Source: Vibrio crassostreae 9ZC13 (GTDB lineage: Bacteria; Pseudomonadota; Gammaproteobacteria; Enterobacterales; Vibrionaceae). From it: a stretch of DNA of 64,000 nucleotides. Position 1 is the stretch's first letter. Each line of letters starts with the position of its first letter. The stretch spans positions 1-64,000 of the forward strand of contig NZ_AJYZ02000037.1 of the NCBI RefSeq assembly GCF_000272045.2. Reading direction: 5' to 3'. Under the pieces are notes generated by a model. It did no database searches. It worked only from the letters and a program-made list of their open reading frames with translations, and was not told the origin of the DNA. Positions 17,633-44,040 of this stretch are shown here, in pieces. The translations under genes were made by a program, and so were the position numbers.

Positions 17633-17751
17633 ATAGACTCCTGTTAAAGACAGCGTTACATTAACACAAACTGCAATTTTAATTGTATTGGGCCAGAGCG
17701 CAAATAAAAAGGATTCCCCATCTAGGGCGCATTCCGTATAATGAGGCCATT

Positions 17752-18780: not shown

Positions 18781-18835
18781 TTTAGGAACCAATGTAGGAA
18801 CCTTTGTTTTATGTTCCTAACTTTTGGTTCCTAAA
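18781..18835. repeat. integrase arm-type repeats, left end
   Basis: A site at 18781-18802 starts TTTAGGAACCAA and repeats TAGGAAC. An inverted copy occupies 18813-18835. A direct copy, 20 of 22 identical, lies at 36961-36982 near the other end of the island. Placement next to the integrase start suggests arm-type binding sites that may also regulate int. Confidence 0.7.
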
Positions 18836-18836
18836 G

Positions 18837-20075
18837 ATGCCTAGACCAACGATACCTCTTAGTGCGACGGAAGTAAAAAACGCAAAACCCAAAGAGAAAG
18901 AATACAATCTCTTTGATGGCCAAGGGCTGAAACTAAGAATTCTACCCAGTGGTTCTAAGCAATGGCAGCTTAATTACTATCGACCTATAAGTAAAAAACG
19001 TGCAAACCTCAATCTAGGGCGATATCCAGAGGTATCACTTGCTCAAGCAAGAAAGAGTGTCTTAGAAGCAAAAGCGCTGATCGCACAAGATATAGACCCT
19101 CAAGAAGACCAAAAGAAAAGACAGCGAGAGTATAAAGAAGTTCATGAGCATACCTTTGTAAAAATATCAAAGGAATGGTTTGAAATTAAGAAAGATTCGG
19201 TCACTCCAGACTACGCGACCGACATCTGGCGTTCTCTAGAACTCCATGTACTCCCCCACCTAGCCGGTACTCCAATTAAAGATATTACTGCACCATTAAT
19301 CATTGAGCTTTTAAAACCAATAGAAGCCAAAGGTAGTTTAGAGACTGTCAAACGCCTTTCTCAACGCCTCAATGAAGTCATGAATTTCGCTACCAACTGT
19401 GGACTAATTCAAGCAAACCCGCTAACTGGTATCAAAGCAGCGTTCAAAAAACCAAAAAAAGAAAATATGGCAGCGCTGAAACCAGCAGAGTTACCAGAGT
19501 TGATCAAAGCCATTGCCAATGCACAAATAAAACTCACGACTCGCTGCTTATTAGAGTGGCAACTTCACACAATGACTCGCCCCTCTGAAGCGTCTGGATC
19601 TAGATGGGACGAAATTGATTTGGGAGAGGGAGTTTGGACCATTCCTGCAGAGAGAATGAAAAAAAGAAGAGAGCACCGCATCCCACTTACTGAACAAATG
19701 CTAGAGCTGCTAGAAGTGATGAAGCCGATTAGCGGACACAGAGAGTTTATTTTTCCTTCTGACCGAGATCCCAAGAAGCCATGCAATAGCCAAACGGCAA
19801 ATATGGCTCTAAAACGTATGGGGTTTGCGGGAAGATTGGTTAGCCACGGTTTACGCTCGCTAGCGAGCACCACACTCAATGAACAAGGCTTTGACCGTGA
19901 CTTAATCGAAGCATCATTGGCCCACGTTGATGACAACCAAGTACGTAGTGCTTACAACCGTACTGACTACCTTGAACGCCGCCGACCAATGATGAACTGG
20001 TGGAGCGGACATATAGAAGAGGCCGCCAAAGGCAGCCTCTCTGTAACTGGAACTAAGCAATTAAAAGTTATCTAG
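18837..20075 (+). CDS. int: P4-type tyrosine integrase (DUF4102 family)
   Basis: 412 residues. The N-terminal DUF4102 arm-binding domain has KPKEKEYNLFDGQGLKLRIL and the NLGRYPEVSLAQAR motif. A SAM-like core-binding domain follows at about 95-195, then the catalytic domain with Arg in MTRPSEA (about residue 247), HGLRS, the LAHVDD histidine and the nucleophile in SAYNRTDY. All catalytic residues are present, so the enzyme should be active. It catalyses site-specific integration and excision at ssrA. ATG at 18837 is chosen over an upstream TTG (18804), which lies in the arm repeats. Convergent with the defence operon. Confidence 0.95.
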   Translation: MPRPTIPLSATEVKNAKPKEKEYNLFDGQGLKLRILPSGSKQWQLNYYRPISKKRANLNLGRYPEVSLAQARKSVLEAKALIAQDIDPQEDQKKRQREYKEVHEHTFVKISKEWFEIKKDSVTPDYATDIWRSLELHVLPHLAGTPIKDITAPLIIELLKPIEAKGSLETVKRLSQRLNEVMNFATNCGLIQANPLTGIKAAFKKPKKENMAALKPAELPELIKAIANAQIKLTTRCLLEWQLHTMTRPSEASGSRWDEIDLGEGVWTIPAERMKKRREHRIPLTEQMLELLEVMKPISGHREFIFPSDRDPKKPCNSQTANMALKRMGFAGRLVSHGLRSLASTTLNEQGFDRDLIEASLAHVDDNQVRSAYNRTDYLERRRPMMNWWSGHIEEAAKGSLSVTGTKQLKVI

Positions 20076-20139: not shown

Positions 20140-22887
20140 CTATTTATTATCACTCCACCCTGATGCCATTAACTCACTAAAGTCTCTTCTTGATAAAACG
20201 CTAGAGCAATCTCGCCAATCCTTATCCGAAGGCTCCATGGTACTTGTATAGCGAAGATCAAAACCATTGGCTTTTTTTTGCGCATCAATGTACTCATCCA
20301 TTTTTTCGCCCATCGTTTCAATGTCTTCTATCCATTCATCTTTAATAGTATCTGGCAATGCACCAAACAAGTTGTAACGATCCTGCATACGCTCAGAGAG
20401 CTTGTCATAAACCTTTTCATCAACAGTCTGTTCATTGACCAAATTAAGCATGTCCACTTGCTCTCGAACTTGTCCAAAGCGTTTGATCCGACCTATTCTT
20501 TGTTCCAACTTGGTTGGATTCCATGGGAGATCAACATTTATGAGTGTACCTAATGTTTGTAGATTCAAGCCTTCACAGGCCGCATCTGTAGCAACCATTA
20601 TTTCTAATTGATGCTCTGAGACCATTTTCTTTAAGGTCTCACGCTCAATATTAACGCTATCACCTTTTTGGTATAGACGACTTCTCCCTGCTCCAGCATA
20701 TAAACCTACAGCTTGATTTTGGTACCGCTCGGCTAAAGAGTCCGCAACCCATTTTGCAGTGTCGTAGTACTGGCTGAAAATAATAACCCCATGCTTGAGC
20801 CAGCCTTCCTGCTCCAAGTAATGTAATACAGCACGTAGTTTTGGGTCTTCTTCAACACTTTCCAAACTAGCAATCATTTGTTCAAGAACCGCTATCTCTT
20901 CTGGGCTTTCCGCTTTTAGTTCAAACAACTGCTCATCACTTTCTTCTTGAACGGTTCGTCCCTCAAGCAGCATTTTGGCTGTATTTAACCCGGCAACAAT
21001 ACTTGAACAAATACGCTGCTCCATGAGGTTTTTCATGAAGCCACCACCTTTACCGCTTTGCGAAAGCGCTTTGCCAAAATGTCGAGCTTCTGTGTAAGCC
21101 TGGCGAAACTCTTCACTAGTAATTAGCGCCTTACCCGTAAATAAACTGCCAAACTTATGCTCTTCTTTAGCTAGCTGTCTATCGGGGTGAACATGAACAC
21201 CAATACGAGGAAGTAGATTTGCGTCCTCTAATGTCACACGTTTACGTAAAACGATATGACGAACAAATGGATTCTCTCGCTGGAAAAAACTAGCTCCAGC
21301 AATATCACGATCTAGCTCGTCTTCTAGGTAGTCCCTGGAGTCCTCAGATAGATCTGTTAATGGGTTTCTAATATCTGACTTTCGATTATTTAGTAGATCA
21401 AGATCTTCGCGAATAGAGCGAATCAGTTTCCGCGAATGCTTCTCGTTGCTAGAATCAACCATAGGGAGCGGTGAACGTAACAGCTCCCATGCAAAACTAG
21501 GTGAGCTTACATGCTGCTCACCTGACAAAATAGGTAGTACCTCTTTGGGGCGATGCCACTTGGCTAAATCATTCCCTAGCACAAAATTGCCGTCACCTTG
21601 ATGCAATATGCCCATAAGGTCCCAAAGGTCTTCTGAACGAGTTTGAATGGGGGTCGCAGTACCCAAGAGTACATGATCGGAACGCGCAGCAACATCACAC
21701 ATAAAAGCAAGTAAGTTATTGGGGGTACCCGCTTCCTTTCCGAACCCTTGTCTACTTCGGGCTTTATGAGCCTCATCAAGAATCGTAAGACCAAACCTTA
21801 AACCCAAGAGATGTTCTTTCTCTAAAGACTCTTGCATCATCAACCCAGTAGAGACAATGCCAATACGCAGAGGGCACTTGGCGATAAACTCCCGACCAGA
21901 AGGCGATATCACTCGCTCATCCGAATCTATCCAAGCTTTTTTTTGTGTATGCCATCTAGCACAAGGAATACCTAGCTTGTCTATCATCTCTGTTTGCCAC
22001 TGCTCACAGAGTGTGGCTGGTGCAAAAATAATTACGGGTTTACGCTTTTTGTTTTCTTTATCACTAAGAAGACAAAGACTCAATGCGGCTGTCGCCATTG
22101 ATAAAGTTTTACCTAACCCAACCTCATCAGCAATAAGCAAGCGTACAATGCCATGATTACGATAATGACGAATACACTCGGTAACAAAACCCTGTTGCCA
22201 GGGCCTTAGTGAAAAACCCTGCCGATAGAGCGGTGATTCAATCAATGCTGCAGGTGCTACATCATCTTCATCATCAATCTCATCAAATACGATTTCACGC
22301 CGATATCCACGGCGCTTAACCTCGCGTATTACAGCATCTGGTAGCTGACGAGCGGCGTTCCATAAGTATTCAAACTCTTCTTCTATCCATGCTACCCCCT
22401 CAGGAGAATCATCCTCCCAAAGGATCTCATAGTGCCTTTGCCAGCCACTACTTGTTTCATTCATTGAACCCATGAAGCCCAGTTTTCGACCATCCGCACA
22501 CTCTATGACTCCGGCTTTACCATGTAAAAAGCCACAAACACTGTCAGGTGCAACACGAATGACTTGCCCGTGCTTAGCTAGAAAGCTATCAAGCCTTCGA
22601 TAACGGTCACGATTAAGCAGAGCTTCTGTCTCTATATCTTGCTCATTCCAACGACCAATCATCTTAGATTCTCTAAGCTGAGCCACTTTCAAATCATCAG
22701 GGTGAATATCGACATTACAGACGATTTTTACGTCAGGGATAGCCTCAATGAGCTCATGAGCAACTTCAAACAAAGAACTGGTAAAGTAACCCGCTATACG
22801 TTTATAGCTGCGGGCCCCTTTTAAGTGCTCAAGTAAAAAGCTGCTATCAAGCCGATGAGTACGTGAAGAAAACCGCCTGATCGCCAT
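20140..22887 (-). CDS. PLD-domain SNF2/DEAH helicase of an anti-phage operon
   Basis: 915 residues. An N-terminal phospholipase D-like domain has HGK at 122-124 and the partner GSMNETSSGW from 140. An SNF2-type helicase core follows: Walker A DEVGLGKT at 254-261, DEAH at 371-374, GTATPIQTRSEDLWDL, IIFSQYYDTAKW and the motif V-VI stretch GLNLQTLGTLINVDLPWNP then QRIGRIKRFGQ. The single HxK motif could support a nuclease dimer. It is the last gene of the operon with DUF499, DUF3780 and DUF1156 proteins; this set is listed among predicted defence systems. It starts after GGGGGA. By analogy with DISARM-like systems it may be the DNA-translocating or cutting arm; that is inference. Confidence 0.9.
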   Translation of the reverse strand: MAIRRFSSRTHRLDSSFLLEHLKGARSYKRIAGYFTSSLFEVAHELIEAIPDVKIVCNVDIHPDDLKVAQLRESKMIGRWNEQDIETEALLNRDRYRRLDSFLAKHGQVIRVAPDSVCGFLHGKAGVIECADGRKLGFMGSMNETSSGWQRHYEILWEDDSPEGVAWIEEEFEYLWNAARQLPDAVIREVKRRGYRREIVFDEIDDEDDVAPAALIESPLYRQGFSLRPWQQGFVTECIRHYRNHGIVRLLIADEVGLGKTLSMATAALSLCLLSDKENKKRKPVIIFAPATLCEQWQTEMIDKLGIPCARWHTQKKAWIDSDERVISPSGREFIAKCPLRIGIVSTGLMMQESLEKEHLLGLRFGLTILDEAHKARSRQGFGKEAGTPNNLLAFMCDVAARSDHVLLGTATPIQTRSEDLWDLMGILHQGDGNFVLGNDLAKWHRPKEVLPILSGEQHVSSPSFAWELLRSPLPMVDSSNEKHSRKLIRSIREDLDLLNNRKSDIRNPLTDLSEDSRDYLEDELDRDIAGASFFQRENPFVRHIVLRKRVTLEDANLLPRIGVHVHPDRQLAKEEHKFGSLFTGKALITSEEFRQAYTEARHFGKALSQSGKGGGFMKNLMEQRICSSIVAGLNTAKMLLEGRTVQEESDEQLFELKAESPEEIAVLEQMIASLESVEEDPKLRAVLHYLEQEGWLKHGVIIFSQYYDTAKWVADSLAERYQNQAVGLYAGAGRSRLYQKGDSVNIERETLKKMVSEHQLEIMVATDAACEGLNLQTLGTLINVDLPWNPTKLEQRIGRIKRFGQVREQVDMLNLVNEQTVDEKVYDKLSERMQDRYNLFGALPDTIKDEWIEDIETMGEKMDEYIDAQKKANGFDLRYTSTMEPSDKDWRDCSSVLSRRDFSELMASGWSDNK

Positions 22888-22930
22888 ATATTATTTCCCC
22901 CAAATCCATAAGTAGCTCATCATTGATTGC

Positions 22931-25900
22931 TTAATTTCCCAAAGCACGCATATTGCGTAGACGGGCACCTAGCACTTCCGCAACATCTCGTGTCGCTTGC
23001 TCCGGTGCTTTGTTTTCAACGAACTTAAGCACATCAATCAAAACTGGTCGAACTTCCATAAAGTCAGGAAGTTCTTCCTGGAGGTGACTAATCACAATTT
23101 GAGGGTCAGCTTCGGCCAGTAGTTGTTGTAAACCGATAATTAACTGACCCAACCAAGTTGACCCTATCTCGTTACTTTCTGTTAACTCACGAGAAACAAA
23201 TTCAGGAATTCGTTTCAATTGAGCTTTGTTGGCAGCCATACTTCCCATTACACGAGTGTAATCTTCAACGCGGAATGCTTTAGCAAAGTTTTGATAGTTA
23301 TCGAGTTTACCTGCCCCAGTCGTTTCAATATCCATCATTCTTAAATAAAAACGTTGAATACCGCTTAGTTTCTGCCATGTATCGGCACTTAATCCTTCGG
23401 GTACTAAAAGACTATTTGCAGCCTCTGCCGCTTGTTGGACGATTTCATCAACGACTGTTACTTCACCTTTCGTGCGTGGGCGCAGTGCAAATGCTGTTAC
23501 GTCTTCACCACCAATATGAGTATATGACGTCAGAACTTTAAGAGCCGCGGCATAACCTGCCATCTGTAAGTCAGAATCATTAAAGACTGGCTCACCCATC
23601 TTATCTTTCACTTCATCATTTAGATGCATCATGGTTTCGATCTGATTTTTCACTTCAGCTCGAACCGCAGGTAATAAGCGCTGTTTGAAACCGGAATTTT
23701 CACCTGCTGGACGTTTACGTAGCATCAAAATCACAGTCCCTTGAACATAGCCGCCTTTTTTCAATTCCGTACTTGTTTCGGTTGCGATATACCAAGCGCC
23801 TACTACTTGCAGCCCAGCGGCCCAGAATATGCCAACCATATCAGACCAAACTCCGGTATCTTGGTGCGTAAACATCACACATTGCATACCATTATCTGGC
23901 ATATGATCTGCCATGGCTTTGTACGCATTAACCATACCTTTACGGAAGTCATCACCTGCTCCCTTAATAGCAAGGGCTCGTCTAGAATCCCAGGTCCACT
24001 CATCGAATGGGGCTGGTGGGTTTTTGCGTAGCCATGCAATAAAATACTCTGTTATTTCATGATAATGTACAGCATCAGCATATGGTGGATCTGTCACATA
24101 AATATCATTAACAACGTCTACTTTATCCGCTTCATGGTTTTTTAATTGAATATCAATATCAGAAATCGGACTGTTAGCAAAACCGAAAGAGCGACCTGCT
24201 TCATGACTAGTAAAACAACGAGTTCCGTAGTTATAGAAAGTATTTAGTGCTTGGTTATAGAAAACATTGTTCGTTTTTTCCCAGTGAATCATCCAGTTTG
24301 CAATTCTAGAGTTCCAATCCAATGACTTAGCGTTAAATATGTAGTCTTCTGGCGTATTGTTCTTAAAGTAAAGAGCGTACATCAACAAATGTCGAGCATT
24401 GAATAAATGATGCCAGTGTGTCCAACCTCTCTCTCGAATTGGTTGATCTGTATTGTAACCAGACTCAATAGCCATATCAGGAACGAGCCCCTCTTGCTGC
24501 CATTTGACTATATTGTCAGAAACGATCTGATTAACTTTTTGTTCTCGTTGGATATCCTCTTGTGATACACCTGTAAAGAATGTTTCTTGTCTCGATTGAT
24601 CTAAAGTGTCTTTCGTTATCCAGTGAATTGCATATAAACGTTCTTGAAAAATATCATCTTCGCGAGGAGCAAAATCTTCTTTTTCCCACTTTCTTAATCG
24701 ATTCTTGTTAGTTCCATCAGAGTCTTTATAGTCGCCTCGCAAAGTTTTTACTGGTGTACGGTAAGTTTTACCATCAAGTTCATAAACTAAGGCGCCCTCT
24801 CTTACAGTACCTTTATTTGCTTGCTTCATCTCAGAAGCTGATACATTGCTGACAACTTCTATATCGAAACGCTTAGACTCATGGTTAGGGATCAACCTAG
24901 CTATGACATTTTTTTGTTTAGAGATCACCCAGGTAGGAGACATGGGCACAAGCCAGCCTGTCTCAGGACATTTTGTTTCTAAGCAGTAAAGGTAGGCTTT
25001 TGCTCGGTTGCCATGATCATCATGCTCTATCCCTAAAGCCGTAATTTCATCATCTACTGCCTTCGCAACTTCTTTCTGTTTGCTCTCAATTTCAGCCTTT
25101 CTTTCCGGAGACGCTCCAATAATGTTTAGCGCTCCCCAAGTTAGCATTAGAGCTATTGGGTTAAGGTCTGAAGCATACACATCGCAACCCAGGCGAGCCG
25201 CTTCAAATGGTATCGAGCCACCACCGCTAAAAGTGTCAGCTACTCTTGGCTTACGCCCGTACTTTAATATACCTAGTTGTTCAACAAGTTCCTGATGAGA
25301 ATTAGCCTCTATGCCTAAATCTTTATAATGGCTATTTACTTTTGTCCATACGTGTTGTGTTAACCAATCTTGGTCAACTTCTTCAGGACGTTTACATAGC
25401 AGTGATTTCTCTTCGTAGCCTTCAATAGTATCGAGATATAGAGCTAATAAACTGATTTTATCTTTCTCTTCGATATCGCGTCGCCATCGCAGTTTTAAGC
25501 CCAGCTCATCTGGAGATTGAGGAAAACTCAAAGCATCAACCTCTTTAAAGCGCACATTATCTACTTTTACATTGTGAGAAAAATAATCCCACGGATTATG
25601 AAGGCTTACTTTCTCTGCTATGTCTTTAGGCTTAATGGCGTTTTGAACTAAAGCTCTTTTGGCGAGGCTTTGATTATCGAATGCCATCAGCATTTCGAAG
25701 ATTTCTAAGTCTTTCTCAGTATCATTTGTTTGTGGCAACAAGCTACCAAGTACCACTGAACGCACCAGAATCAGAGGTTTACGACCTTTCCAGTATGAAC
25801 CTAAACCTGTTAGTGTCTGTCCAAGGTTTGCTTTTCTTTCTTTTTGAGCTTCAAAGGAAACTTTTTGTGCGGGAAAGACTGCTTCGATAAGAGCAGGGGC

Positions 25901-25933
25901 GTCTTTTAATGTAAAAGGCGTTAGTTGTGCCAT
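22931..25933 (-). CDS. DUF1156 adenine-specific DNA methylase of an anti-phage operon
   Basis: 1000 residues. The N-terminal DUF1156 region contains SFEAQKERKANLGQTLTGLG. SAM-binding motif I DTFSGGGSIPFEAARLG is at about 233-249, and the catalytic motif DPPYADAVHYHEITEYF begins at about residue 612. A long insertion separates the two, as is typical for this family. Predicted to methylate adenine (N6) in host DNA so that the operon can tell self from phage. The gap to the PLD-helicase is 43 bp. GGAG precedes the start. The target sequence is unknown. Confidence 0.92.
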   Translation of the reverse strand: MAQLTPFTLKDAPALIEAVFPAQKVSFEAQKERKANLGQTLTGLGSYWKGRKPLILVRSVVLGSLLPQTNDTEKDLEIFEMLMAFDNQSLAKRALVQNAIKPKDIAEKVSLHNPWDYFSHNVKVDNVRFKEVDALSFPQSPDELGLKLRWRRDIEEKDKISLLALYLDTIEGYEEKSLLCKRPEEVDQDWLTQHVWTKVNSHYKDLGIEANSHQELVEQLGILKYGRKPRVADTFSGGGSIPFEAARLGCDVYASDLNPIALMLTWGALNIIGASPERKAEIESKQKEVAKAVDDEITALGIEHDDHGNRAKAYLYCLETKCPETGWLVPMSPTWVISKQKNVIARLIPNHESKRFDIEVVSNVSASEMKQANKGTVREGALVYELDGKTYRTPVKTLRGDYKDSDGTNKNRLRKWEKEDFAPREDDIFQERLYAIHWITKDTLDQSRQETFFTGVSQEDIQREQKVNQIVSDNIVKWQQEGLVPDMAIESGYNTDQPIRERGWTHWHHLFNARHLLMYALYFKNNTPEDYIFNAKSLDWNSRIANWMIHWEKTNNVFYNQALNTFYNYGTRCFTSHEAGRSFGFANSPISDIDIQLKNHEADKVDVVNDIYVTDPPYADAVHYHEITEYFIAWLRKNPPAPFDEWTWDSRRALAIKGAGDDFRKGMVNAYKAMADHMPDNGMQCVMFTHQDTGVWSDMVGIFWAAGLQVVGAWYIATETSTELKKGGYVQGTVILMLRKRPAGENSGFKQRLLPAVRAEVKNQIETMMHLNDEVKDKMGEPVFNDSDLQMAGYAAALKVLTSYTHIGGEDVTAFALRPRTKGEVTVVDEIVQQAAEAANSLLVPEGLSADTWQKLSGIQRFYLRMMDIETTGAGKLDNYQNFAKAFRVEDYTRVMGSMAANKAQLKRIPEFVSRELTESNEIGSTWLGQLIIGLQQLLAEADPQIVISHLQEELPDFMEVRPVLIDVLKFVENKAPEQATRDVAEVLGARLRNMRALGN

Positions 25934-26016
25934 TTAGTATTATCTCCAAAAAGAGCGATATGTTAGGAAATCGCTCTATATTTATTTCCGGTGTATTTAG
26001 GGACGGAGCTTTCTCG

Positions 26017-27114
26017 TCACCCTGTTGCGGAATTAGTTAGTTTTTTACCGTAACCCAACTCTTTAAGGCTGCGGCCTTTTAAATCCCGCCAAGCATCCAT
26101 ACCACTACGAGGATTACCTGCAATCACACAAGCCGCCAAGCTTGGACTTTTAAACGTGTATTCTCGTGTAAAAGAATAAACCTCTCCGTCCTCCACAAGA
26201 ACACCTTCATCTAGAAGCTTCTGGCGTAATTCTCGAATAGCAGGTCGTAACGATTTCGCCACAGCTACGTTTGCCGTCGAGCCTTTTCCAACAACAAATT
26301 CTGGCTTACTCATGTCACCAACTGGGTGGCCACCAGCTTTAGCCTTCTTAGCTTCAAATAGGAATAGCACATCCTCCGCCAATGAACTCTCCTCTTTAGG
26401 CTCACTAACGGACAATGGAGTTTCCTCATTTTGGATTATTGGATTTGAGTTGCCAGCTGGCAACTCAGCTAAACTTTCAGCAGCCTTCTGTGAATTTTCA
26501 TTAGATGATTGTAGGTTGCCTTCAATATCAGCTTGAACCAATGAGTAACTTGGTGACACTTCACGAACTTGTCTGCCTTTTTCCAGCGACTCTGTTTGTA
26601 CAATGTCACCAAGAGCGTGGCGCAGCGCAACACGCCAACCTACATCACGGTCATCCTTGTGGCCTGTGCTCATTGCTGTCATACCAAATAACCACCAGCG
26701 CTCTTCAGGACGAAGCGCTAACCAGTTGCGAACAGCGACAGAGATATTTTCAACATCCATACCCTCTATAGCCCAGGCAAGTACACAAAGCTCTTTACCT
26801 AGCAAACGGTCGACAACATTCTCACCGACTTTCCAAGAGCTTGGCTTTAGATCATAGCTTTTCAATCGAGCATTAAACGCTCGCTGCACCTCTGCACGTA
26901 TTGCTGTCCAACAAGGACGGTCTAGAACCACACGCTCAATAACCGATAACTCTTCGCTCTGAGCTTGCATGCCCAAATGCTCACTAATTTCAACTTTGCC
27001 ACTATTCGCTTTTGGAATGATAACTTTAAAGTGATGAGGGTCACTGGACGCTGGTACCCCAAAACCAAGCGTCGAATACTTAGGCGCATTTTGTTTTGCT
27101 GTTACCTTTGACAT
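26017..27114 (-). CDS. DUF3780 protein with C-terminal DUF4357-like domain
   Basis: 365 residues. The body matches the DUF3780 family seen beside DUF499 and DUF1156 genes: STLGFGVPASSDPHHFKVII, WAIEGMDVENISVAVRNWLA, RPEERWWLFGMTA and DVGWRVALRHAL. A low-complexity linker (about 200-255) leads to a C-terminal SPSLAACVIAGNPRSGMDAW segment then KGRSLKELG, which resembles DUF4357, a small domain often appended to restriction or nuclease-related proteins. No catalytic motif is evident, so an adaptor or DNA-recognition role is plausible but unproven. GAGGAG lies upstream of the ATG. Confidence 0.85.
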   Translation of the reverse strand: MSKVTAKQNAPKYSTLGFGVPASSDPHHFKVIIPKANSGKVEISEHLGMQAQSEELSVIERVVLDRPCWTAIRAEVQRAFNARLKSYDLKPSSWKVGENVVDRLLGKELCVLAWAIEGMDVENISVAVRNWLALRPEERWWLFGMTAMSTGHKDDRDVGWRVALRHALGDIVQTESLEKGRQVREVSPSYSLVQADIEGNLQSSNENSQKAAESLAELPAGNSNPIIQNEETPLSVSEPKEESSLAEDVLFLFEAKKAKAGGHPVGDMSKPEFVVGKGSTANVAVAKSLRPAIRELRQKLLDEGVLVEDGEVYSFTREYTFKSPSLAACVIAGNPRSGMDAWRDLKGRSLKELGYGKKLTNSATG

Positions 27115-27153
27115 CTATTTCTCCTCATCACTGTTTACTTTATACATACAGGA

Positions 27154-30100
27154 CTATTCTTCCTGCGCTACATCACCAGGGCGAAGCTCAATACCTGCTA
27201 ACTTAGCAAACTCTTTTGCTTCAAAACCATTTTCAAACTCGATGCCATCTCTCACGTTAACTGTGACCGCTGCATCTGCCTCATTGAGTAGCTCTCTTAG
27301 GCTGTTCACTGTTTTTTCGATCATGGCTGCTGTAACTTGGCGCTCACCAAAGCGAATACCAACGGTGTTTTCACCTTCACCAATTTCGATCCTAACTCCT
27401 TTGAATTGAGTTGAAGCCTGGTCTTTAAATCGATTGATAACTGAGAAAACCTTATCGGTAGTATCAAGTGATACACGCTTTGCACTATTGATTCTTGCTG
27501 GTTTAGTGTCGTCAATTTTTACAGTTTTATCGCCAACATGTGGAATAGAAAACTCCGCTGTCTTAGATGCTTCACCTGATTTGGCATAAACTAATAACAG
27601 TGTTGCATCCGAACCAATATCGAATGGCTTGTCATAAGCTGAGCCATCTTTAGGGTTAGAGCCATCCAATGTGTAAAACATGTCAGCATTTGGTGTGCAT
27701 TGCAGAGTGATTTTTCGTTTATCTGCCAACGCCTCTACCTGATGTCTTATCTTAAGGTCTGCAACCCAACGAGTAGCCGCACCTGTTTCATATTTACCAC
27801 TAGGATCTCTCACTAGGAAGTAAAGCGTACTTTCAGTTGTACTAAAGCTTTCACTATCTTCAACTTGTGCATCCGTTTCTAAAACCTCAGGCCTTGTTGA
27901 ATAATGAATTACAGGACTGTCACCAGCATTTCTCGGCGTTAGGCTAAGTACTGACTCTCCAGTATCTGGATGTGTACTTAGTAAAGATACGTTCACGCTG
28001 GTTTTCTCTTTAGGGAATGGTCCTTTTTCAACGTAACCATCTTCACCTTGACGCCAACGACCTTGCTTGAGCGCTTCTGCTTTTAGCGTATCCATACCAC
28101 CGTTACCAGGCATCCAAGGCCAACCTGGATTACACTTGGCTTTGCTTACCACATCTTTCCATGGAGTACGTCTATTTCCTGCGCCTGAAGGCCAAAGCTC
28201 CGCTTCTGCCATTGCAAAATACTGGGCAAAATCGTCTTTTAGATCAGCTGCTAATTTATAGTTGGCACGAGGGTCAGACATTAACTTATCGATTTGCACT
28301 TCAGCAGACTGATCGCCATCGCCAATTTTTAGTCCATTATCGATAGTGACCTTTAACAAGTGCTCAGCACCATCTATAGGGTCTACTCCAGGAAATAAAA
28401 TGGTGTTGTATGACGCAGATAGAGCCTTAGAAAAACGACCCTCTGCTTCTTCTAGTCGATCTCTAGCTTCTTCGAATAAGGTGTCACCAGATTTCAGCTT
28501 TTTGTTAATTAACTCGATTGCATATAGCTCACGTAACCTCTCTTCAACCGCATCCGCCATGATGCTGTCTTGCCCCGTTAGCACTAAAAGGTTGTTTTTC
28601 TCCTGCTGGAATTCAAAGAAGTTCATTAACTCACTTGGTGGCACTTTACCGTCAGGTTTTATAACGATAAGGGTACGAGGACCACTTAGCTTGAGCTCAT
28701 CCATTCGAGGCAAAATTTGAACATCTTGATATGTATTGCGAGTGTTTGGTTGCAAGATCCCTTTCAAACGGTTAATCAACGCTTGGTCAATTTTAGGTTG
28801 TGGGATTTCCTTCGCACTTCGCTCTATCTGTCGAGATAAGTTTTCTGTTTCCTTAATAAAGAAGCGCTCATCTTCACGATGCAGATACCAAGCTTGTTCA
28901 CGTAGCTTTTGGATGGCTTCTAGGAACTCATCTGCTTTTCGGTTTGGGGCCGCTAAAAACTCTATAATTTCGCTTTCAGATAAACCGATACGGCCACCCA
29001 CTGCACGAGAAAGAGACGAAGCTAATAATAAAGTCATTAGCTGAACTGAAGCATCGTTACTTTGCTCTGCATCGATAATCTCTGAAATTGCATCACCTTT
29101 GTCTGCAATATCTCGCGTTATGGCTGGTACAAGCTTTGGAGAGATCCTCTCGATTTCATCTTTAACTTGCTCGTCATTTAAATCTAGGTGCTGAGTACCA
29201 ATAAGGAACACATCATCAGTTTTCCGCTGTTCAACACTTTTCAGAAGTCGAGCAGTAAACTGCATTAAACCACGCGTTTGACGAAAGCCTTCATTTTCTT
29301 TAAACAAAGCAACTAGGTGCTTAAAAGAAGGGTGGAACGGGTAAGTCTCTCGAATCTGGTCAGCAATCTGCTCAATGCTTGAAGCAATGATGTAGCCACC
29401 GTCTTCCGCTTTTTTAATTTGCTGGGCGTACTCTTCCGCAATGTCATTGATTACTTGCTCATCAGGCATTTGATCAACAAGACGCTTTTTCAAAATCTCA
29501 TAGATTTCATTACCCGATAATTGCACTGGGGTAATGGTCATAGATTGGCGACGAGTTTCTTGTTGCAGGTTAGAGATTGAGTCTGCAAGCGCTTTTGTCT
29601 GAGCCTTATAGCTGCCTGAAAGGTTCGCCATAACGATACAGCAATTTGGTAGTTCTAAAGCCGCACTCATTAACGTACTTAGGCTATACACCACCATATC
29701 TGCTAACGTACCTGTACCTAAAACGTGTGTACTTGCAACGTTCAAATAAGGTGGTAGCTCATCAATCATAATCAGAGTTGGTGTGTCTCCGATGATGTCT
29801 TTCCATTTCTGCTGATCGACAGGTTTAGGCCCATTAACCCAGTGCTCTTTAATTTCTTCTTCAGCACCTAGCTGTGTACAGATATCACCCCAGATATAAT
29901 TACTAGGGTTGTTTCGCCCATTGAAAGCAGCAATACGAGCGTTACCGAAATCTAAGCGACTACTGAGGCTTTCAGGTAACACAGCTGGTCTCAGGTGAGC
30001 ATGTTTAGCAAGTAAGCCCAGAGCGATCATCATGTGAGTTTTACCACCACCCATCGCTTGAGTTAGTTCGAAAACGGCTTGATCCGATTTGCCAGACAAA

Positions 30101-30279
30101 CGAAGCATGCCCTCTCGGAATAGCTGTTCCATACCGTGAGTAACGAAGTTGCGTGAAAAGAACTCACTACCATCACCTTCATCAGTAATTAGATCAGCCA
30201 GGTTTTCAATCCCTTGGCTCATCCTGTAATCCTGAATCACAGGGTTGAAACTACATGCCTGTTTAACCGTTTTAATCAT
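27154..30279 (-). CDS. DUF499 P-loop ATPase of an anti-phage operon
   Basis: 1041 residues. Walker A AMGGGKTH at 75-82 and Walker B LIMIDELPP at 169-177 define an AAA-like ATPase of the DUF499 type, similar in outline to BREX BrxC/PglY. The middle is helical and charged. Near residues 865-920 NADMFYTLDGSNPKDGSAYD resembles the beta-sandwich domain found at the end of beta-hexosaminidases (CHB_HEX_C type). The start overlaps the stop of the preceding regulator gene by ATGA, with AGGAG inside that gene, so translation is coupled. First large gene of the operon; a role in coordinating methylase and helicase is inference. Confidence 0.92.
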   Translation of the reverse strand: MIKTVKQACSFNPVIQDYRMSQGIENLADLITDEGDGSEFFSRNFVTHGMEQLFREGMLRLSGKSDQAVFELTQAMGGGKTHMMIALGLLAKHAHLRPAVLPESLSSRLDFGNARIAAFNGRNNPSNYIWGDICTQLGAEEEIKEHWVNGPKPVDQQKWKDIIGDTPTLIMIDELPPYLNVASTHVLGTGTLADMVVYSLSTLMSAALELPNCCIVMANLSGSYKAQTKALADSISNLQQETRRQSMTITPVQLSGNEIYEILKKRLVDQMPDEQVINDIAEEYAQQIKKAEDGGYIIASSIEQIADQIRETYPFHPSFKHLVALFKENEGFRQTRGLMQFTARLLKSVEQRKTDDVFLIGTQHLDLNDEQVKDEIERISPKLVPAITRDIADKGDAISEIIDAEQSNDASVQLMTLLLASSLSRAVGGRIGLSESEIIEFLAAPNRKADEFLEAIQKLREQAWYLHREDERFFIKETENLSRQIERSAKEIPQPKIDQALINRLKGILQPNTRNTYQDVQILPRMDELKLSGPRTLIVIKPDGKVPPSELMNFFEFQQEKNNLLVLTGQDSIMADAVEERLRELYAIELINKKLKSGDTLFEEARDRLEEAEGRFSKALSASYNTILFPGVDPIDGAEHLLKVTIDNGLKIGDGDQSAEVQIDKLMSDPRANYKLAADLKDDFAQYFAMAEAELWPSGAGNRRTPWKDVVSKAKCNPGWPWMPGNGGMDTLKAEALKQGRWRQGEDGYVEKGPFPKEKTSVNVSLLSTHPDTGESVLSLTPRNAGDSPVIHYSTRPEVLETDAQVEDSESFSTTESTLYFLVRDPSGKYETGAATRWVADLKIRHQVEALADKRKITLQCTPNADMFYTLDGSNPKDGSAYDKPFDIGSDATLLLVYAKSGEASKTAEFSIPHVGDKTVKIDDTKPARINSAKRVSLDTTDKVFSVINRFKDQASTQFKGVRIEIGEGENTVGIRFGERQVTAAMIEKTVNSLRELLNEADAAVTVNVRDGIEFENGFEAKEFAKLAGIELRPGDVAQEE

Positions 30280-37265: not shown

Positions 37266-39146
37266 TTACTCCATATCACCTAACAAGTAATCTTCATCGC
37301 TGCTCACTACTGCGCCGTGCTTCAAGAAGTTCTTACCTAGGATCATGCTGTATTCGAAGCGAGAACGGTCTTGAAGGTTTACCCTCACCTCTTTCTCTAG
37401 GTCTCCGAGCTTAACCTTCATTTCTACCACAGGGCGAATGTTCACCTTCTCGCCTTTCTTGGCTTTGATACGCATTACATCAATCACTGGCTTGGTGAAA
37501 TCTTGCTTATCGCCTTGGTTGTTTTGATAGGTAAAGCTCACCATGTCTTGGCCATCTTTCTTAAATCGTTTGATGTTGACTGCGTTCATTGAGCTTACAT
37601 CCGCACCAGTGTCGAGCTTGGCCGGGAACTTCATGCCGTTCACTTCTACTACTTCAATATGCCCAACTTTAAACAGTGGTTCGGCTTTCAGAAGGTAATC
37701 AGAACGCGTATTAACGTAAACGCCCTCTTTTGCCATCTTCTTGCCTAAAATAAAGTACGCTTCTTTCTCATTTGTATTGAGCACGTCGATGGCAAACTCT
37801 TGCGTACGCACTTTTCCAGAGACCGCAAACTCACCACTCACTACCGGACGAGTATCATCCCCGACTCTTAATTTCTTAATCACGGGCTTGGTGACTTTTT
37901 GCTGTTCGCCATTCACGTCAGTTAAGTAGAACTCAACCGACGTCTCTTTGCCCTTACCGATAATCTCAAAGCTATCAACCTTCAACAAAGGCGTATTGAC
38001 GGTGAAAGAAGCCACGGCCTTAAGCGGGAAGTTATCAATCGTAATGTCTTCTTCTGGTGAGATAATTAAAGGCTCACCAGCCTCCGCCACATCGCTAAAG
38101 CTCTCTGAACCTTCAGAAAGAATATTTTCTGCATTGGTATCAATCATGAAGAGCTCACTGGCTGTGCTGGTTCCAAATCTCAACTGCGACTCACTACTCG
38201 AGCGCTCACGTAGGTACACCAGAACGTCTTTAGTTGTGTTTTCATCGAGTTGAACAGGCACATACACCAAAGGTCTCTTCTTACCGCTCACGCTTAACAT
38301 ACGAACCAACGGCAATGTCATCTCTTTTTGCTTACCGTCGTTGTCGAACATATCAAACGTCACTTCACTGTTCTTCTTATCTATATCGATGTCTTTTGCA
38401 TGAAGGATGCTGTAGCGATTTTTTAATGAGAAGGTCGCGTTCATCGCCATTCCAGAGATAGACACCACCTCTTTTCGGCCAACAACGGTCGCGTTCTCTT
38501 GCTCTTGTAAATAGTCATAACCTGCAAACACCAGCGCGTTATCCGCAAGGAAGGTTTTACCAATCAGCACTGGCGCAGAGAAGTGGCTTCTGTCGGTCAG
38601 GTTAACGTCGGTTTTTAGCTCTTGGTCTGCAATGGTGAGCGACATTTTTACGGTAGGGCGATGCAAAGGCGTGCTGCTGGTGCGGCTGCGTATCATGCTG
38701 ACACGCTCTAAAGGCGCTTCGATTAATACCATGTCTCCCGTCCGCGGGTTTTGAACCTTAAAAGACACCACAGCCTCATATTTCGCAAAGGTACTGCCAT
38801 CCCAATCATCGTAATCAACATCGGAATTGTTCAACAGGTCTTCGGTTAACGCCGCCATCAACTCTTGGTCTTTGAGATTTAGGTAATCGGGATTAGAGCT
38901 CTTCACATGAATGTCTTCAGCATGCATAGAAGTGGTTTCTGCACCGGTATCAATTTTACCAATGAAAGGAACGTCTTTTAGCCCTTTAACGCTAGATAGG
39001 TACACGTTCTCAGTGCGACCTAGTACCGACTTACCATCGAGTTCGTAAGTGGGATTTTGAGTGGTATGTGAAGTATCAGTAGCCAAAGTGTATTGTGAAA
39101 AAAGTAGAGTGCTTAAAAGAGTTAGAGCCAAAGGTATCTTTTTCAT
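37266..39146 (-). CDS. periplasmic retropepsin-like (RimK-associated Zn-protease type) protein with four tandem domains
   Basis: 626 residues with a signal peptide (about residues 1-22). The first domain has DTGAETTSMHA from residue 66 and ends VLIGKTFLADNALVFAGYDY. The last has LDTGADVSSMNA (about 512-523) and ends SMILGKNFLKHGAVV. Both fit the retropepsin-like ATP-dependent zinc protease/DUF785 fold. Two further middle repeats keep the frame of strands (VRMLSVSGKKRPLVYVPVQL; IKKLRVGDDTRPVV) but have lost the DTGA, so they are probably structural. ATG at 39146 is chosen because it gives the signal peptide; an in-frame start at 39224 does not. Substrate unknown. Confidence 0.8.
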   Translation of the reverse strand: MKKIPLALTLLSTLLFSQYTLATDTSHTTQNPTYELDGKSVLGRTENVYLSSVKGLKDVPFIGKIDTGAETTSMHAEDIHVKSSNPDYLNLKDQELMAALTEDLLNNSDVDYDDWDGSTFAKYEAVVSFKVQNPRTGDMVLIEAPLERVSMIRSRTSSTPLHRPTVKMSLTIADQELKTDVNLTDRSHFSAPVLIGKTFLADNALVFAGYDYLQEQENATVVGRKEVVSISGMAMNATFSLKNRYSILHAKDIDIDKKNSEVTFDMFDNDGKQKEMTLPLVRMLSVSGKKRPLVYVPVQLDENTTKDVLVYLRERSSSESQLRFGTSTASELFMIDTNAENILSEGSESFSDVAEAGEPLIISPEEDITIDNFPLKAVASFTVNTPLLKVDSFEIIGKGKETSVEFYLTDVNGEQQKVTKPVIKKLRVGDDTRPVVSGEFAVSGKVRTQEFAIDVLNTNEKEAYFILGKKMAKEGVYVNTRSDYLLKAEPLFKVGHIEVVEVNGMKFPAKLDTGADVSSMNAVNIKRFKKDGQDMVSFTYQNNQGDKQDFTKPVIDVMRIKAKKGEKVNIRPVVEMKVKLGDLEKEVRVNLQDRSRFEYSMILGKNFLKHGAVVSSDEDYLLGDME

Positions 39147-39353
39147 TAGTTGGTCCGTTGTGATCAGTTCACTAATAATACTGGCGTTTGCGCGAAGATT
39201 TCCCCCACCAGCAATGGTTCTCACATAACGTTAACGCTATGAGTTTTTAAATGACAAACCGATGACTTTGCGCTGCATTCGCTTATCGATTATTGACTAA
39301 TGGATACCCAATAACCTTTTCAATGCTCGGTGTTCTATTGAAGAAATGAATAC

Positions 39354-40342: not shown

Positions 40343-41071
40343 TTAGCGTGTTTTGTTCCAGTAAACAATCTCTCTAACTCGTCCGTTCTGATCCTTGTCA
40401 GCTTCTCCACCAACATCAGAAAGTTCAGGTAAGGTCGATAATTGCGGAGCGTAATAGGCAACTAACATAAGTACGAACGCATCGTAAATATCGTCTATCG
40501 CGGCGTCTTTACGTTTGGTATTTGAAATGGCCAACGACAAGCGGTCACACCATTGAGGGGATAGCTGCTGAATAATAGAAAGCCGTTCCTCTTTGCCTTC
40601 TTGCGTTCGTTTTGAAAACGTCAGCGGTTCGTCTTTCAATGCTGCAAACACCACTTCAGGATGTGATTCCCTGATAGAAAGATTGGGATGAGTTTCAATG
40701 AGCTCATCAAGCTCGCGAATCTTGGGCACAATTCCCCAAGTCTGTTTAGAAAACTTCTTATCAAGCTGCTCCACATTGGCACTGCACGCCGCAATGTAAT
40801 CGGTTTGGTAAACCGCCTCACGACACGGAACCGGAAACACCGAAGAACCACGTTTGCTGGTTAGAAAACGCCTTGCTGCTTTGTCACACAAGCGATCTGG
40901 AGTTTGTGCATCACTAAAACCAATAGGCATATCGATAAGCGCCGTTGAACCGATAAGATCACTCGCTAGCTCATCGAGGGTGTTTACCACTTTAAACGCA
41001 GGTATCTCATTGTCAGAGACAATCCAAGCGATCCAACCCGACTTGCAGCCATCAATTCCGATGTATTTCAT
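40343..41071 (-). CDS. DUF429 domain protein (predicted RNase H fold)
   Basis: 242 residues. MKYIGIDGCKSGWIAWIV with Asp7, ALIDMPIGFSDAQTPDRLCD, SSVFPVPCREAVYQ, SHPEVVFAAL and AAIDDIYDAFVLMLVAYY are DUF429 hallmarks; acidic residues in these stretches resemble the RNase H-like nuclease arrangement. Biological role unknown. Immediately downstream (58 bp) of the methyltransferase-HNH gene, possibly cotranscribed with it. Confidence 0.9.
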   Translation of the reverse strand: MKYIGIDGCKSGWIAWIVSDNEIPAFKVVNTLDELASDLIGSTALIDMPIGFSDAQTPDRLCDKAARRFLTSKRGSSVFPVPCREAVYQTDYIAACSANVEQLDKKFSKQTWGIVPKIRELDELIETHPNLSIRESHPEVVFAALKDEPLTFSKRTQEGKEERLSIIQQLSPQWCDRLSLAISNTKRKDAAIDDIYDAFVLMLVAYYAPQLSTLPELSDVGGEADKDQNGRVREIVYWNKTR

Positions 41072-41129: not shown

Positions 41130-42842
41130 TCAGTGCCACTCACTAATCAGCAGTCTGCTTTTTACACCACGTACCTGCAAGCCCATTGCATCGAACACCT
41201 CTTCAAAGTCTCGACACTGCGCAGGGATGCTAGGTAACGAAAGCGCGGCTTCTGAAAAGAATTGTTGTTCAAAATGAGCCGAATCGTTCCAAGCGAGTTG
41301 CCACCACTCTAGAATCCTCGACTTAGACGAGCGCAGCTTTTCAGCCGTAGGAACTTTATCACTTTTACTTAAGTTCTCTTTGCTTGTAGTAGGAAAGAGG
41401 TTCCACTTATCGTTGTTTGGCCAGTAAGCGAAAGGCAAACAGTGATCAACGTGATACTCATTTTTTAATGATTTTCCACTCCACACGCTGACAATGTCGG
41501 CACGATCAGATCTAAGTTGCTCGACACGTTTACGCACATCGCGAGTATCATGGTTTTGATCGATCCATACCAAGCAGTCGTGATAAGTCTGTAGTGAAAT
41601 GCTTCGCTGTCGGTTCAACTCGAAACGCTGCATCTCCATGACCCATTGATTCACCACCAGCGGTTCAATCCACGAGTGGTAGATTCTAAAGCACTCCCAC
41701 AGGCTTTCATCGAGAGTAAAATAACCAAAACTTTCTAAGAACTCACTATCAATGACCAGTGATTCTCGGCTCTTCCGTCGTTTGTGAGGTGGGTATATAT
41801 CGAATAGTCGGTTGTCTTTCGAGCCTTGATAAATGAAAGTCACAGGTCCTGATTTAATGGTACTGATCGTTTGTGAAAATAGCTTTTGTAGAGCCTTGGC
41901 TTCATCGCCGAGAAACATAGCGCCTATCGCTAGATCATCAGCACTTAAGTGTTTGAGTTTATTCCAACCATCCTCTTTTACAAACCCAAGTCCCTTCGTT
42001 GTGTTGCTATTTTGCTGAATCCCAGCGCCTTCTATGTCGATATCAATCAGTCGCTTAAACTGCCTAACCCAATACAGAGCAACCAAGCCCACTGGTAGAG
42101 AAATTTTCCCATCAGTTCGATCAATCACAGCGCCTGAATGCGCATCAGCAATTCTCAGTAGAGTTCTCAACAAAGCCAACTTGTATGTGGCCGACTTGTT
42201 GTCATTCACAATAATGTGGCGCACCTTGTTCAAGTCACCGGAGCCATCGTCTGGTAGTGTCATCACCACGGTTTGCCACCACACCTCACTGCGGTTCAAT
42301 GTATCTTGGCTATCATCAACATGACGAACCAACAAGGCGCTGTTTTTTGATAAACGCTCGAGCTCTTCAACCGAGACTTCATAGCCTTGTCGACTGTCTT
42401 GAAACTCCCCATGACGCAGAGTGATCACCAACTTGCCATTTGGAGCTAGCAAGTTAGACAACTTTCTAAATGCGCGCTCTCGATGAGACGGAGCGAGATG
42501 CATCCAAACCGCACTGACCAATATCAAGTCAAAACGCATTCCGAGGTTTTCAGTGCGGCTAAGCGAGGGAAGTGAATCATCAATCCAGGTAACACTTGGG
42601 CCTGTATATTTCGAGCCTTGTTCGCGTAATGAAGCACTTGGTTCTATCGCAATAACATCAGATCCTGTCTTGTGCATCCATAGCGCATCACGACCGCATC
42701 CAGCACCGACATCGAGTACTTTATCGCCCACTAAAGGCCAGTAAGCTTGCCAGCTTTTATGCACCGTCTCGAAGGTCACTGAGTTGTACTGCTGGCAAAG
42801 TGTGTGAGCATTTTTATCGTAAAAAGGAATCGATGAGGACAT
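41130..42842 (-). CDS. fusion of SAM-dependent methyltransferase and HNH nuclease
   Basis: 570 residues. The N-terminal third is a class I methyltransferase: VLDVGAGCGRDALWMHKTGS (motif I), IAIEPSASLR, and FDLILVSAVWMHLAPSHRER. Residues of about 210-440 form an unrecognised helical region. The C-terminus has an HNH-type site: NEYHVDHCLPFAYWPNNDKW (from about 460), then NLFPTTSKENLSKSDKVP. Methylation and nuclease modules in one chain resemble solitary modification-dependent or defence enzymes, but whether the substrate is DNA, RNA or a small molecule cannot be said. No clear ribosome-binding site. Adjacent to DUF429. Confidence 0.8.
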   Translation of the reverse strand: MSSSIPFYDKNAHTLCQQYNSVTFETVHKSWQAYWPLVGDKVLDVGAGCGRDALWMHKTGSDVIAIEPSASLREQGSKYTGPSVTWIDDSLPSLSRTENLGMRFDLILVSAVWMHLAPSHRERAFRKLSNLLAPNGKLVITLRHGEFQDSRQGYEVSVEELERLSKNSALLVRHVDDSQDTLNRSEVWWQTVVMTLPDDGSGDLNKVRHIIVNDNKSATYKLALLRTLLRIADAHSGAVIDRTDGKISLPVGLVALYWVRQFKRLIDIDIEGAGIQQNSNTTKGLGFVKEDGWNKLKHLSADDLAIGAMFLGDEAKALQKLFSQTISTIKSGPVTFIYQGSKDNRLFDIYPPHKRRKSRESLVIDSEFLESFGYFTLDESLWECFRIYHSWIEPLVVNQWVMEMQRFELNRQRSISLQTYHDCLVWIDQNHDTRDVRKRVEQLRSDRADIVSVWSGKSLKNEYHVDHCLPFAYWPNNDKWNLFPTTSKENLSKSDKVPTAEKLRSSKSRILEWWQLAWNDSAHFEQQFFSEAALSLPSIPAQCRDFEEVFDAMGLQVRGVKSRLLISEWH

Positions 42843-43101: not shown

Positions 43102-44040
43102 ATGAACACATACTCACACATAGATACCCCATTCAACCTGCGCCACACCTGTTGGTTTTGTGGTGAACCTTCAAGTAACGTTGTTGAATTTCCTAAGACA
43201 GCGCAGGCAGTTGCCAAGATAGGCCATTCACCGATCGCACTGCCGGCTTGTAATGAGTGTGCGAGAATTAACTATTCAAAGAATCTGACCTCAATTTGGT
43301 CTGTGCGCGATCAGATAAAACACACTCTGATAGACAAGTACGCTAAGCACCTTGGCATCGGTGAGAACTGGACGGAGCAAGAGCTTATTGATTCTGATTT
43401 CTCGGGTTCGACGCTCGGTGGGTTTGGGCGCAGCGCTTGGAAGATGTATCAAATCGCCAAACAACGCGTCGATTATAAAGGCTGGCCTTTGTCGGTTGAT
43501 GACATCCCACTTGAGGTATACGACGAAACCAGTGGCTTTGAGTTTGACGGTACTCGTTATGCCTCAATCAATTCATGTATCGACTATTTCACCAAGGCAG
43601 CAGGCGTAGACAAAGAGCTGTTGTCGCAGCTTGTCGACATCGTTTCATCAGACCGATTTAGCTACGCACTGCGAATCACCAAGCTGAACAAGAATGTCTC
43701 TAATACCAAGCGCTCGGAGATCGTCGAAGAGGTACTACAACAAGAGTCTGAACAAGAAGAGATACTGCTTGAGCAAGCTAATTCAATGTTTAACCCAAAC
43801 GTCGAAGAGGTGAATATTTCAGGCTCAATAGCGCCTGTATTTGCCATTCAGTGGGCGCTGGCTAACAAGGTTAAAGATTTAGCCCACCTTTGTGCTCTCG
43901 AAGATGAGTATTTTGACTATTTCGAGCACCTCGGCGGCCCTGCAGCTTTCATGTCCTATAACGGCCTACAACTCTATTTAGAGTCGCGTCAAGATCCTGA
44001 ATGGGTAGAAGAGTTGGATCCAAATAAACAGTATTGGTGA
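43102..44040 (+). CDS. uncharacterised protein with N-terminal zinc-ribbon
   Basis: 312 residues. RHTCWFCGEPS at 14-24 and LPACNECARI near 48-57 form a four-Cys (CxxC...CxxC) zinc site like those at the start of HNH-type proteins, but no HNH histidines follow. The rest is acidic and helical, with a Glu-rich stretch EEVLQQESEQEEILLEQANS near 215-234 and a C-terminal YNGLQLYLESRQDPEWVEEL. I do not recognise the family. Divergent from the methyltransferase-HNH gene with a 259-bp shared upstream region. The start has a weak ribosome-binding site. Confidence 0.75.
   Translation: MNTYSHIDTPFNLRHTCWFCGEPSSNVVEFPKTAQAVAKIGHSPIALPACNECARINYSKNLTSIWSVRDQIKHTLIDKYAKHLGIGENWTEQELIDSDFSGSTLGGFGRSAWKMYQIAKQRVDYKGWPLSVDDIPLEVYDETSGFEFDGTRYASINSCIDYFTKAAGVDKELLSQLVDIVSSDRFSYALRITKLNKNVSNTKRSEIVEEVLQQESEQEEILLEQANSMFNPNVEEVNISGSIAPVFAIQWALANKVKDLAHLCALEDEYFDYFEHLGGPAAFMSYNGLQLYLESRQDPEWVEELDPNKQYW

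Follow-up and report, generated by a model that had tools for sequence, protein, structure and literature searches.

What is the role of a polypeptide in which a methyltransferase (MTase) and an HNH nuclease are joined in one chain, and do its neighbours belong to the same system? This question is raised by a locus of Vibrio crassostreae 9ZC13, contained in a stretch of 64,000 nucleotides that was analysed as a whole and is referred to here as the window. The original prediction described a class I MTase domain and an HNH site separated by an unrecognised middle region, and proposed that the chain forms a compact defence or modification system with an adjacent DUF429 protein. The features concerned are the following:

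41130..42842, minus strand: MTase-HNH fusion gene, 570 amino acids, ATG start, the single-chain form of the cassette discussed below
42252..42842, minus strand: class I MTase domain, residues 1-197, identified by Pfam, alignments and fold, with the SAM-loop LDVGAGxGRD and the motif SAVWMH
41571..42239, minus strand: middle domain, residues about 202-424, with a fold weakly like the sulfur-binding DNA readers of Hga and ScoMcrA (Z 6.2 and 5.8)
41145..41555, minus strand: HNH nuclease domain, residues about 430-566, identified by Pfam (HNH_4), alignment and fold, Cas9-HNH-like
40343..41071, minus strand: DUF429 gene, identified by Pfam, a neighbour judged to be outside the system

The presence of both domains in one chain was confirmed. 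In the window protein, Methyltransf_25 was matched by residues 42-136 (E 3e-11, 44.3 bits against a cut-off of 27) and HNH_4 by residues 460-498, the latter match being marginal with 22.8 bits against a cut-off of 22. An alignment of 41 fusion proteins from several genera, 36-91% identical to the window protein, revealed that D44, G46, A47, G48, G50, R51, D52, E67, P68 and A111-H115 are invariant in the MTase, and D466, H467, W480, N481, N490 and K493 in the HNH domain. Since the SAM-binding and the HNH residues are both invariant across 41 fusions from different genera, both domains must be under strong selection. HNH conservation had been named beforehand as one point on which the prediction could fail; the catalytic-type residues were found in 41 of 41 fusions.

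The search for the same fusion in other genomes, which had also been proposed, identified the full-length form in Vibrio, Photobacterium, Shewanella, Idiomarina, Marinobacter, Massilia, Azospirillum, a cyanobacterium, Desulfuromonas and others, with plasmid-borne copies in Roseomonas and Azospirillum. The nearest named relative over the MTase part is that of V. splendidus MOR1, with 97% identity. In public annotation, the fusion gene is designated just 'class I SAM-dependent methyltransferase' or 'methyltransferase domain-containing protein'.

The DUF429 gene (Pfam match with E 2.1e-49) is located 58 bp downstream of the fusion gene on the same strand, an arrangement that would suit a two-gene defence or modification system. 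However, DUF429 was found in only 9 of 102 fused loci, all of one syntenic Vibrio group and two of them (L051 and L071) on the same contig; apart from the window, the two genes are neighbours in close relatives which share the flanking genes. Further, in genome G027 DUF429 and both flanks are present, while the fusion is reduced to 3' scraps corresponding to residues 520-543 and 540-570. DUF429 is thus a positional neighbour and not a partner, and it was rejected as such on synteny; a system composed of the fusion and DUF429 is highly improbable.

The window copy of the fusion gene lies outside a defence island, which occupies positions 20140-30279. There, PLD_Helicase, DUF1156 MTase, DUF3780 and DUF499 proteins each gave a near full-length PADLOC match, and the set is preceded by an SmpB-like gene (17683-18237) and an integrase-like gene (18804-20075), both assigned by eye. 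This island is a known kind of defence locus with its own DNA MTase and PLD-helicase. Between the island and the fusion gene, a 652-residue protein (37266-39224) contains four matches to Zn_protease PF05618, a family which we take to be retropepsin-like. On the other side of the fusion gene, a 312-residue protein (43102-44040) has two CxxC pairs near its N-terminus and is conserved at the syntenic Vibrio locus; no Pfam family was matched above cut-off.

If DUF429 is not the partner, the question arises what the MTase is regularly associated with. Partners were tallied for 148 MTase open reading frames with at least 185 bits against the MTase profile in the fetched loci, an effector being counted when it was fused to the MTase or encoded within 100 bp on the same strand. 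On this basis, 139 of the 148 are coupled to an effector, which is a nuclease in 129 cases and a membrane protein in 10. Fusion to an HNH_4 half accounts for 102 (including four short, broken or cut rows, L086, L100, L150 and L240), and at five of these loci a helicase gene, encoding a PLD-helicase in four, is additionally present directly upstream. The other partners are a separate HNH_4 protein (4), an HNH_2 protein (17), another HNH protein (1), a phosphorothioate-type HNH protein (1), a PLD-helicase (2), a nuclease-helicase (2) and a membrane protein (10). The PLD-helicases are type IV-like, with E values down to 5.8e-114, and match PADLOC mREase_IV; in the nuclease-helicases, the N-terminal nuclease domain was judged by eye and Pfam detects the helicase part alone. 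The order of MTase and effector genes varies among loci. Nine MTases are without an effector as defined here. For L137, the HNH_2 gene is too distant, at about 140 bp upstream; L118 and L050 are incomplete, a PLD-helicase gene is convergent to L041 and to L243, and no recognised partner was seen for L224, L227, L106 and L241.

The 148 loci are partly redundant (L051 and L071, for example, represent one contig); after removal of near-copies at 85% identity within each partner class, 100 of 107 are coupled, L137 being included by hand. The tally leaves aside rows L001-L030, L179-L223, L262-L271 and L299-L302, which are mostly repeats of the same places, not all of them compared, as well as the plasmid and phage-record loci L151-L158 and the separately examined L272-L298 and L303-L307. 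Among relatives of 100-170 bits, none of 14 has an effector, three of these being incomplete (cut or broken) viral sequences. Matches of less than about 170 bits were not counted as members of the family, since those fetched occur in metabolic or unrelated contexts; some, such as L237 and L238, were placed in metabolic operons as judged from their neighbours. The score border is not clean, since MTases of about 80 bits (the first MTase of L041, L297 and L298) precede PLD-helicases, and a 132-bit MTase gene (L293) follows, with an overlap, a gene whose product has two hydrophobic segments (2TM). Taken together, the constant element is a class I MTase with its conserved residues kept, and the variable one is an effector, either fused to it or encoded by a closely spaced gene; the several kinds of effector are unrelated to each other and are mostly nucleases carrying or resembling modification-reading domains.

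Upstream of the MTase of L289, at 40 bp, lies a gene whose product matches DUF4357 and, below threshold, GIY-YIG. Similar-looking genes were noticed at two other loci, in L290 at 39 bp before the MTase and in L306 at 123 bp before a lone HNH_2 gene. A gene of this type is possibly a third component.

The effectors have been exchanged repeatedly. A maximum likelihood tree of 124 MTases was calculated by a quick method with SH-aLRT support alone, and L137 was labelled HNH_2 by hand. On this tree, 14 partner changes were counted when partnerless rows were left out, and 21 with 'none' as a state, compared to 48 for shuffled labels. The supported branches alone force at least five label changes for HNH_2. 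For example, G041 and G014 have MTases with 92% identity over 203 residues, but no significant similarity was found between the nucleases encoded downstream; other near sisters with different partners are L077/L074 and L137/L113.

The viral copies have membrane-protein partners. Among 20 stretches of viral contigs, 14 contain an intact MTase with upstream sequence, the other six being cut or broken; all 14 are preceded by a gene for a hydrophobic protein of 190-220 residues, at a distance between a 4 bp overlap and a 15 bp gap. The same MTase/membrane-protein pair is present near the integrase of E. coli phage phi458, and a pair of the phi458 type, at 99% identity or more, was found on the chromosome of 29 of 5426 complete E. 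coli genomes. A Sphingopyxis plasmid contains a homologous pair, and the annotation of the adjoining genes (cysteine desulfurase, DUF4007, PAPS reductase family) is, in our reading, Dnd-like. By hydropathy, the membrane partners have two to three hydrophobic segments. Since the membrane-partnered MTases form a separate, well supported branch of the tree, their role may be different from that of the rest. On 11 of the 20 viral contigs (L165 and 10 others), the MTase gene also faces, in convergent orientation and 11 bp apart, a gene that has 414-438 codons and is presumably IbrA-like by its look (PAPS reductase family). With the PAPS reductase family gene of the Sphingopyxis plasmid, this may hint at a relation to sulfur modification of DNA.

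An MTase linked to a nuclease suggests restriction-modification, in which a non-canonical DNA MTase would mark host DNA while the sulfur-binding-like middle domain and the HNH domain cut unmarked DNA. The linkage itself and the diversity of the nucleases are in favour of this, since type II systems are also built from diverse nuclease folds around one MTase family. The properties of the MTase argue against it. DNA MTases carry a catalytic (D/N/S)PP(Y/F/W) or Pro-Cys motif. No such motif is present in the 41 fusions, where the position reads SAVWMH and A111-H115 is invariant in 41 of 41; in a separate alignment S110-H115 is invariant in 19 of 19 MTases. Canonical DNA methylation was rejected on this ground. 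The MTase has only about 200 residues, with no separate recognition domain seen, and is mildly acidic, with a median pI of 6.16 (range 5.3-9.2) in the 41 fusions against a more basic 8.27 for the nuclease half, that of the window protein itself being 6.97.

The fold points in the same direction. The AlphaFold model of the whole 570-residue chain has a mean pLDDT of 92.1 and a pTM of 0.77, and the structure search with it identified RPA2492 (Z 22.5) and UbiG (Z 21.6), followed lower in the list by phosphoethanolamine MTases (Z 19.4-20.1) and METTL6 (Z 19.4). The sequence profile search agrees with this, listing ubiquinone/menaquinone-type MTase, TehB and phosphoethanolamine MTase. The predicted fold of the MTase is therefore nearest to small-molecule and RNA-type class I enzymes, with UbiG-, TehB- and METTL6-like enzymes as its neighbours, so that action on a small molecule, which had been named as a finding that would speak against the original prediction, is possible. 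Y8, Y19 and H115 are invariant, and the phosphoethanolamine MTase mutants Y19F and H132A appear in the titles of matched structure entries; this prompted the idea that a candidate Tyr-His catalytic pair might exist here by analogy to these enzymes.

For the C-terminal half, the fold search with the whole chain was filled by MTases, and this half was therefore folded alone (mean pLDDT 91.4, pTM 0.89, AlphaFold). Foldseek returned no match to this model at E <= 0.001. With VIA-align, residues 1-223 of the half, corresponding to the middle domain, matched the sulfur-binding domains of Hga (8h0l; Z 6.2, 129 aligned residues, rmsd 5.0) and of ScoMcrA (5zmo; Z 5.8, 138 aligned residues, rmsd 5.8), both weak matches below the tool's safe level of Z 8 and the only rows outside the HNH range. 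The HNH part matched Cas9 HNH domains with Z values up to 7.4. The weak sulfur-binding values gain some weight from two partners elsewhere in the family: the nuclease of L115 scores 284.9 bits against a cut-off of 180 for NCBIfam NF045808, 'phosphorothioated DNA-binding restriction endonuclease', and the same model is matched over its N-terminal part by the HNH_2 partner in Vibrio, with E 5.9e-17 and below the cut-off. On the predicted structure, the middle domain is probably a DNA-reading domain. For the region originally described as unrecognised, a confident model with weak matches to sulfur-binding folds is now available. Host phosphorothioation as the mark was set aside, since DndC (TIGR03183) was not matched in the window's genome at E <= 0.001, in a search that was confined to DndC among the sulfur-inserting enzymes, had no positive control and gave results below cut-off for 14 control genomes as well.

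Whether the nuclease depends on the MTase was addressed by a census of 196 Vibrio genomes. MTase profile matches were obtained for 91 at E <= 1e-20, of which 80 are above 190 bits, so that the distribution is patchy. The HNH_4 half is present in 50 of the 196 genomes; in 46 it forms one open frame with the MTase (563-617 codons), in two it is split with the MTase adjacent (G037, G852), G860 contains fragments only, and G008 encodes a distant solo nuclease. With the exception of this distant protein, no intact lone HNH_4 nuclease of the window's type was seen in the 196 genomes. The 46 one-frame fusions, the two split forms and the absence of a lone nuclease are in favour of restriction-modification. 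A different result was obtained for HNH_2. Among 32 unfused Vibrio MTases above 250 bits, all of them inspected for their neighbours, HNH_2 is encoded directly downstream of 28 and another HNH protein of three, G759 being the sole one without a nuclease. Conversely, 28 of 33 Vibrio HNH_2 nucleases of at least 350 residues adjoin an MTase and five do not; two rows marked as paired, L142 (similarity only) and L147 (HNH_2 about 360 bp downstream of a fused gene), are not MTase pairs. Four of the genomes with a lone HNH_2 (G033, G929, G847 and G921) gave no match to the MTase family at E <= 1e-20; G847 has retained a 52-residue MTase remnant 3 bp upstream of the HNH_2 gene, and in the fifth genome, G891, a fused form is located about 7 kb from the lone HNH_2. 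The HNH residues and an SPHK or RPHK motif are kept in all five lone nucleases. Since intact HNH_2 genes persist without an adjacent MTase, the nuclease of this branch should not need a protective MTase, a conclusion that is limited to HNH_2. The asymmetry by which the nuclease would never occur without its MTase, and which would favour restriction-modification, thus holds for HNH_4 and is broken by HNH_2. Together with the five intact HNH_2 nucleases, the membrane partners, which cut no DNA, speak against a host mark. From sequence and predicted fold, classical restriction-modification is not supported, and the non-canonical form outlined above is unlikely.

The same census bears on a toxin-antitoxin-like arrangement, in which a toxic effector would be restrained by the MTase, through methylation or binding, for as long as SAM and the MTase are not disturbed by infection. 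Tight coupling to unrelated effectors, small membrane proteins included, is in line with such a role; fusion would hold both parts in balance, and the HNH_4 type of the window was never seen intact without an MTase. Against this, intact HNH_2 genes persist where the MTase is absent or decayed, which is no proof, the MTase retains its conserved residues, and the gene order is variable. We consider this arrangement quite unlikely.

Two further Vibrio loci were noticed during the census. At L307 (G891:C3), the fused MTase-HNH_4 and the lone HNH_2 are separated by two large genes (659 and 1162 codons) and one resembling a regulator, so that the locus is possibly a composite defence island. The genome of the window itself contains at L050, positions 8372-8806 (G000:C19), a second MTase of the family with 47% identity. 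It ends prematurely near residue 142 and is followed by genes that look, by eye, transposase-like; this is a lost second cassette.

The surroundings of the family were also inspected for a relation to defence. At L115, genes encoding OmpA, EH-signature and SNF2 domains are located immediately upstream of the MTase and nuclease genes, and we take these domains to be the make-up of a Zorya-like locus. The nearest non-partner neighbours of 38 loci (of 79), 150 proteins in total, matched 324 PADLOC families at 1e-8, compared to 6 families for 90 neighbours of 10 low-scoring loci; these figures refer to strongly overlapping profile families and not to proteins, and the two sets are from different taxa. 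The most frequent flank families are AbiEi, AbiEii and DNA MTase, with three proteins each. The fusion is found at different genomic sites, with broken remnants and scars. A housekeeping or DNA-metabolism enzyme, acting in repair or metabolite methylation and present beside mobile genes by chance, would agree with the small-molecule type of the MTase fold and with the distant relatives L237 and L238, placed in metabolic operons by their neighbours. However, the occurrence in 80 of 196 Vibrio genomes, the changing sites with remnants and scars, the PADLOC-richer flanks and the partner swapping make this explanation very unlikely. Of the supposed defence or modification system, the general idea gained ground from the nuclease partners, the Zorya-like neighbour, the phage copies and the PADLOC-richer flanks, but DUF429 is lost as a component.

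The explanation that we tentatively prefer, with a confidence somewhat below even, is a modular cassette directed against invaders. Recognition and cutting of DNA would be the task of the nuclease. The middle domain would dock on DNA, and the HNH domain would cut the docked DNA, so that invading DNA is restricted. The MTase would be a licensing or sensing enzyme and not a protector of host DNA; this is the least certain step and was reached by exclusion. Its substrate may be something that appears on infection, either a nucleotide-like ligand or a modified base of the phage DNA, and the methylation would arm or aim the partner effector. A point against the cassette is that the HNH_4 type was never intact without the MTase in the 196 Vibrio genomes, which fits a protective or restraining MTase too. 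The location of the window copy outside the defence island, the weakness of the sulfur-binding match, the blurred score border of the family and its four MTases without a recognised partner also count against it. A related reading, possible if somewhat unlikely, would amount to a new layout of immunity in bacteria: sensing or making a signal would fall to the constant small-molecule/RNA-type SAM-dependent MTase, and the response would be executed by interchangeable effectors. Methylation would then not be a mark of self but a signal or licence for immunity. The effectors would then be the HNH_4, HNH_2 and other HNH proteins, PLD-helicase, nuclease-helicase and 2TM proteins, among which fusion in cis is commonest.

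Several known systems share parts of this cassette. Type IV restriction enzymes of the ScoMcrA/Hga kind, with a sulfur-binding domain and HNH, are resembled by the weak sulfur-binding-like fold and the HNH with conserved residues in the window gene, and sister cassettes use either an NF045808 member above cut-off (L115) or PLD-helicases matching PADLOC mREase_IV. SauUSI is a PLD-helicase kind of type IV enzyme. However, the HNH here is the Cas9-like HNH_4 and not HNH_2, the recognition of modified DNA is putative, and we know of no type IV enzyme with a companion MTase. Type II/IIG restriction-modification systems likewise combine an MTase with diverse kinds of nuclease in one chain or gene pair, but the MTase of the present family is not of the DNA-MTase type and, in the HNH_2 branch, the nuclease is tolerated without it. 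In CBASS and Pycsar, one constant enzyme is combined with swappable effectors, which are nucleases or membrane proteins. Here, in contrast, a SAM-dependent MTase takes the constant position and is in most cases part of the same chain as the effector, and a second messenger is hypothetical.

The PADLOC profile mad2 of the MADS system matches residues 39-198 of the window protein with E 2.3e-14, but the match is partial and covers profile positions 292-447 of 492, the MTase core only, and MADS was set aside as the home system for this reason. PD-lambda-5 of E. coli is a prophage-derived methyltransferase defence gene that, in the accessible parts of PMC9519451, is called a compacted prophage version of an RM+Abi system, the host used being an mrr-region deletion. 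This description and the mrr-region-deleted host suggest DNA methylation by PD-lambda-5 (PMC9519451, as far as accessible). PD-lambda-5 was set apart from the window MTase, and dismissed as the home system, by this description only. DNA methylases, as well as HNH enzymes, of Dnd and BREX loci are treated in the accessible parts of PMC9519451, PMC10853773 and PMC12839542, but not this MTase. The literature searched, in which few subscription papers were included, contained no report of the MTase-effector pairing or of the activity of any member.

HNH restriction enzymes and the fusion of an MTase to a nuclease are known kinds. An MTase that is not of the DNA type as the constant part with exchangeable effectors is new, as far as the literature searched shows. 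The family raises the question of what the substrate of the MTase is, and why the same enzyme is paired with DNA cutters and with membrane proteins. The natural swaps, in which 92% identical MTases are followed by unrelated nucleases, and the natural losses of the MTase provide ready comparisons. If the defence reading is true, a widespread gene would be an immune module. The variety of its partners points to a modular and so far little-studied form of defence against foreign DNA, phages included.
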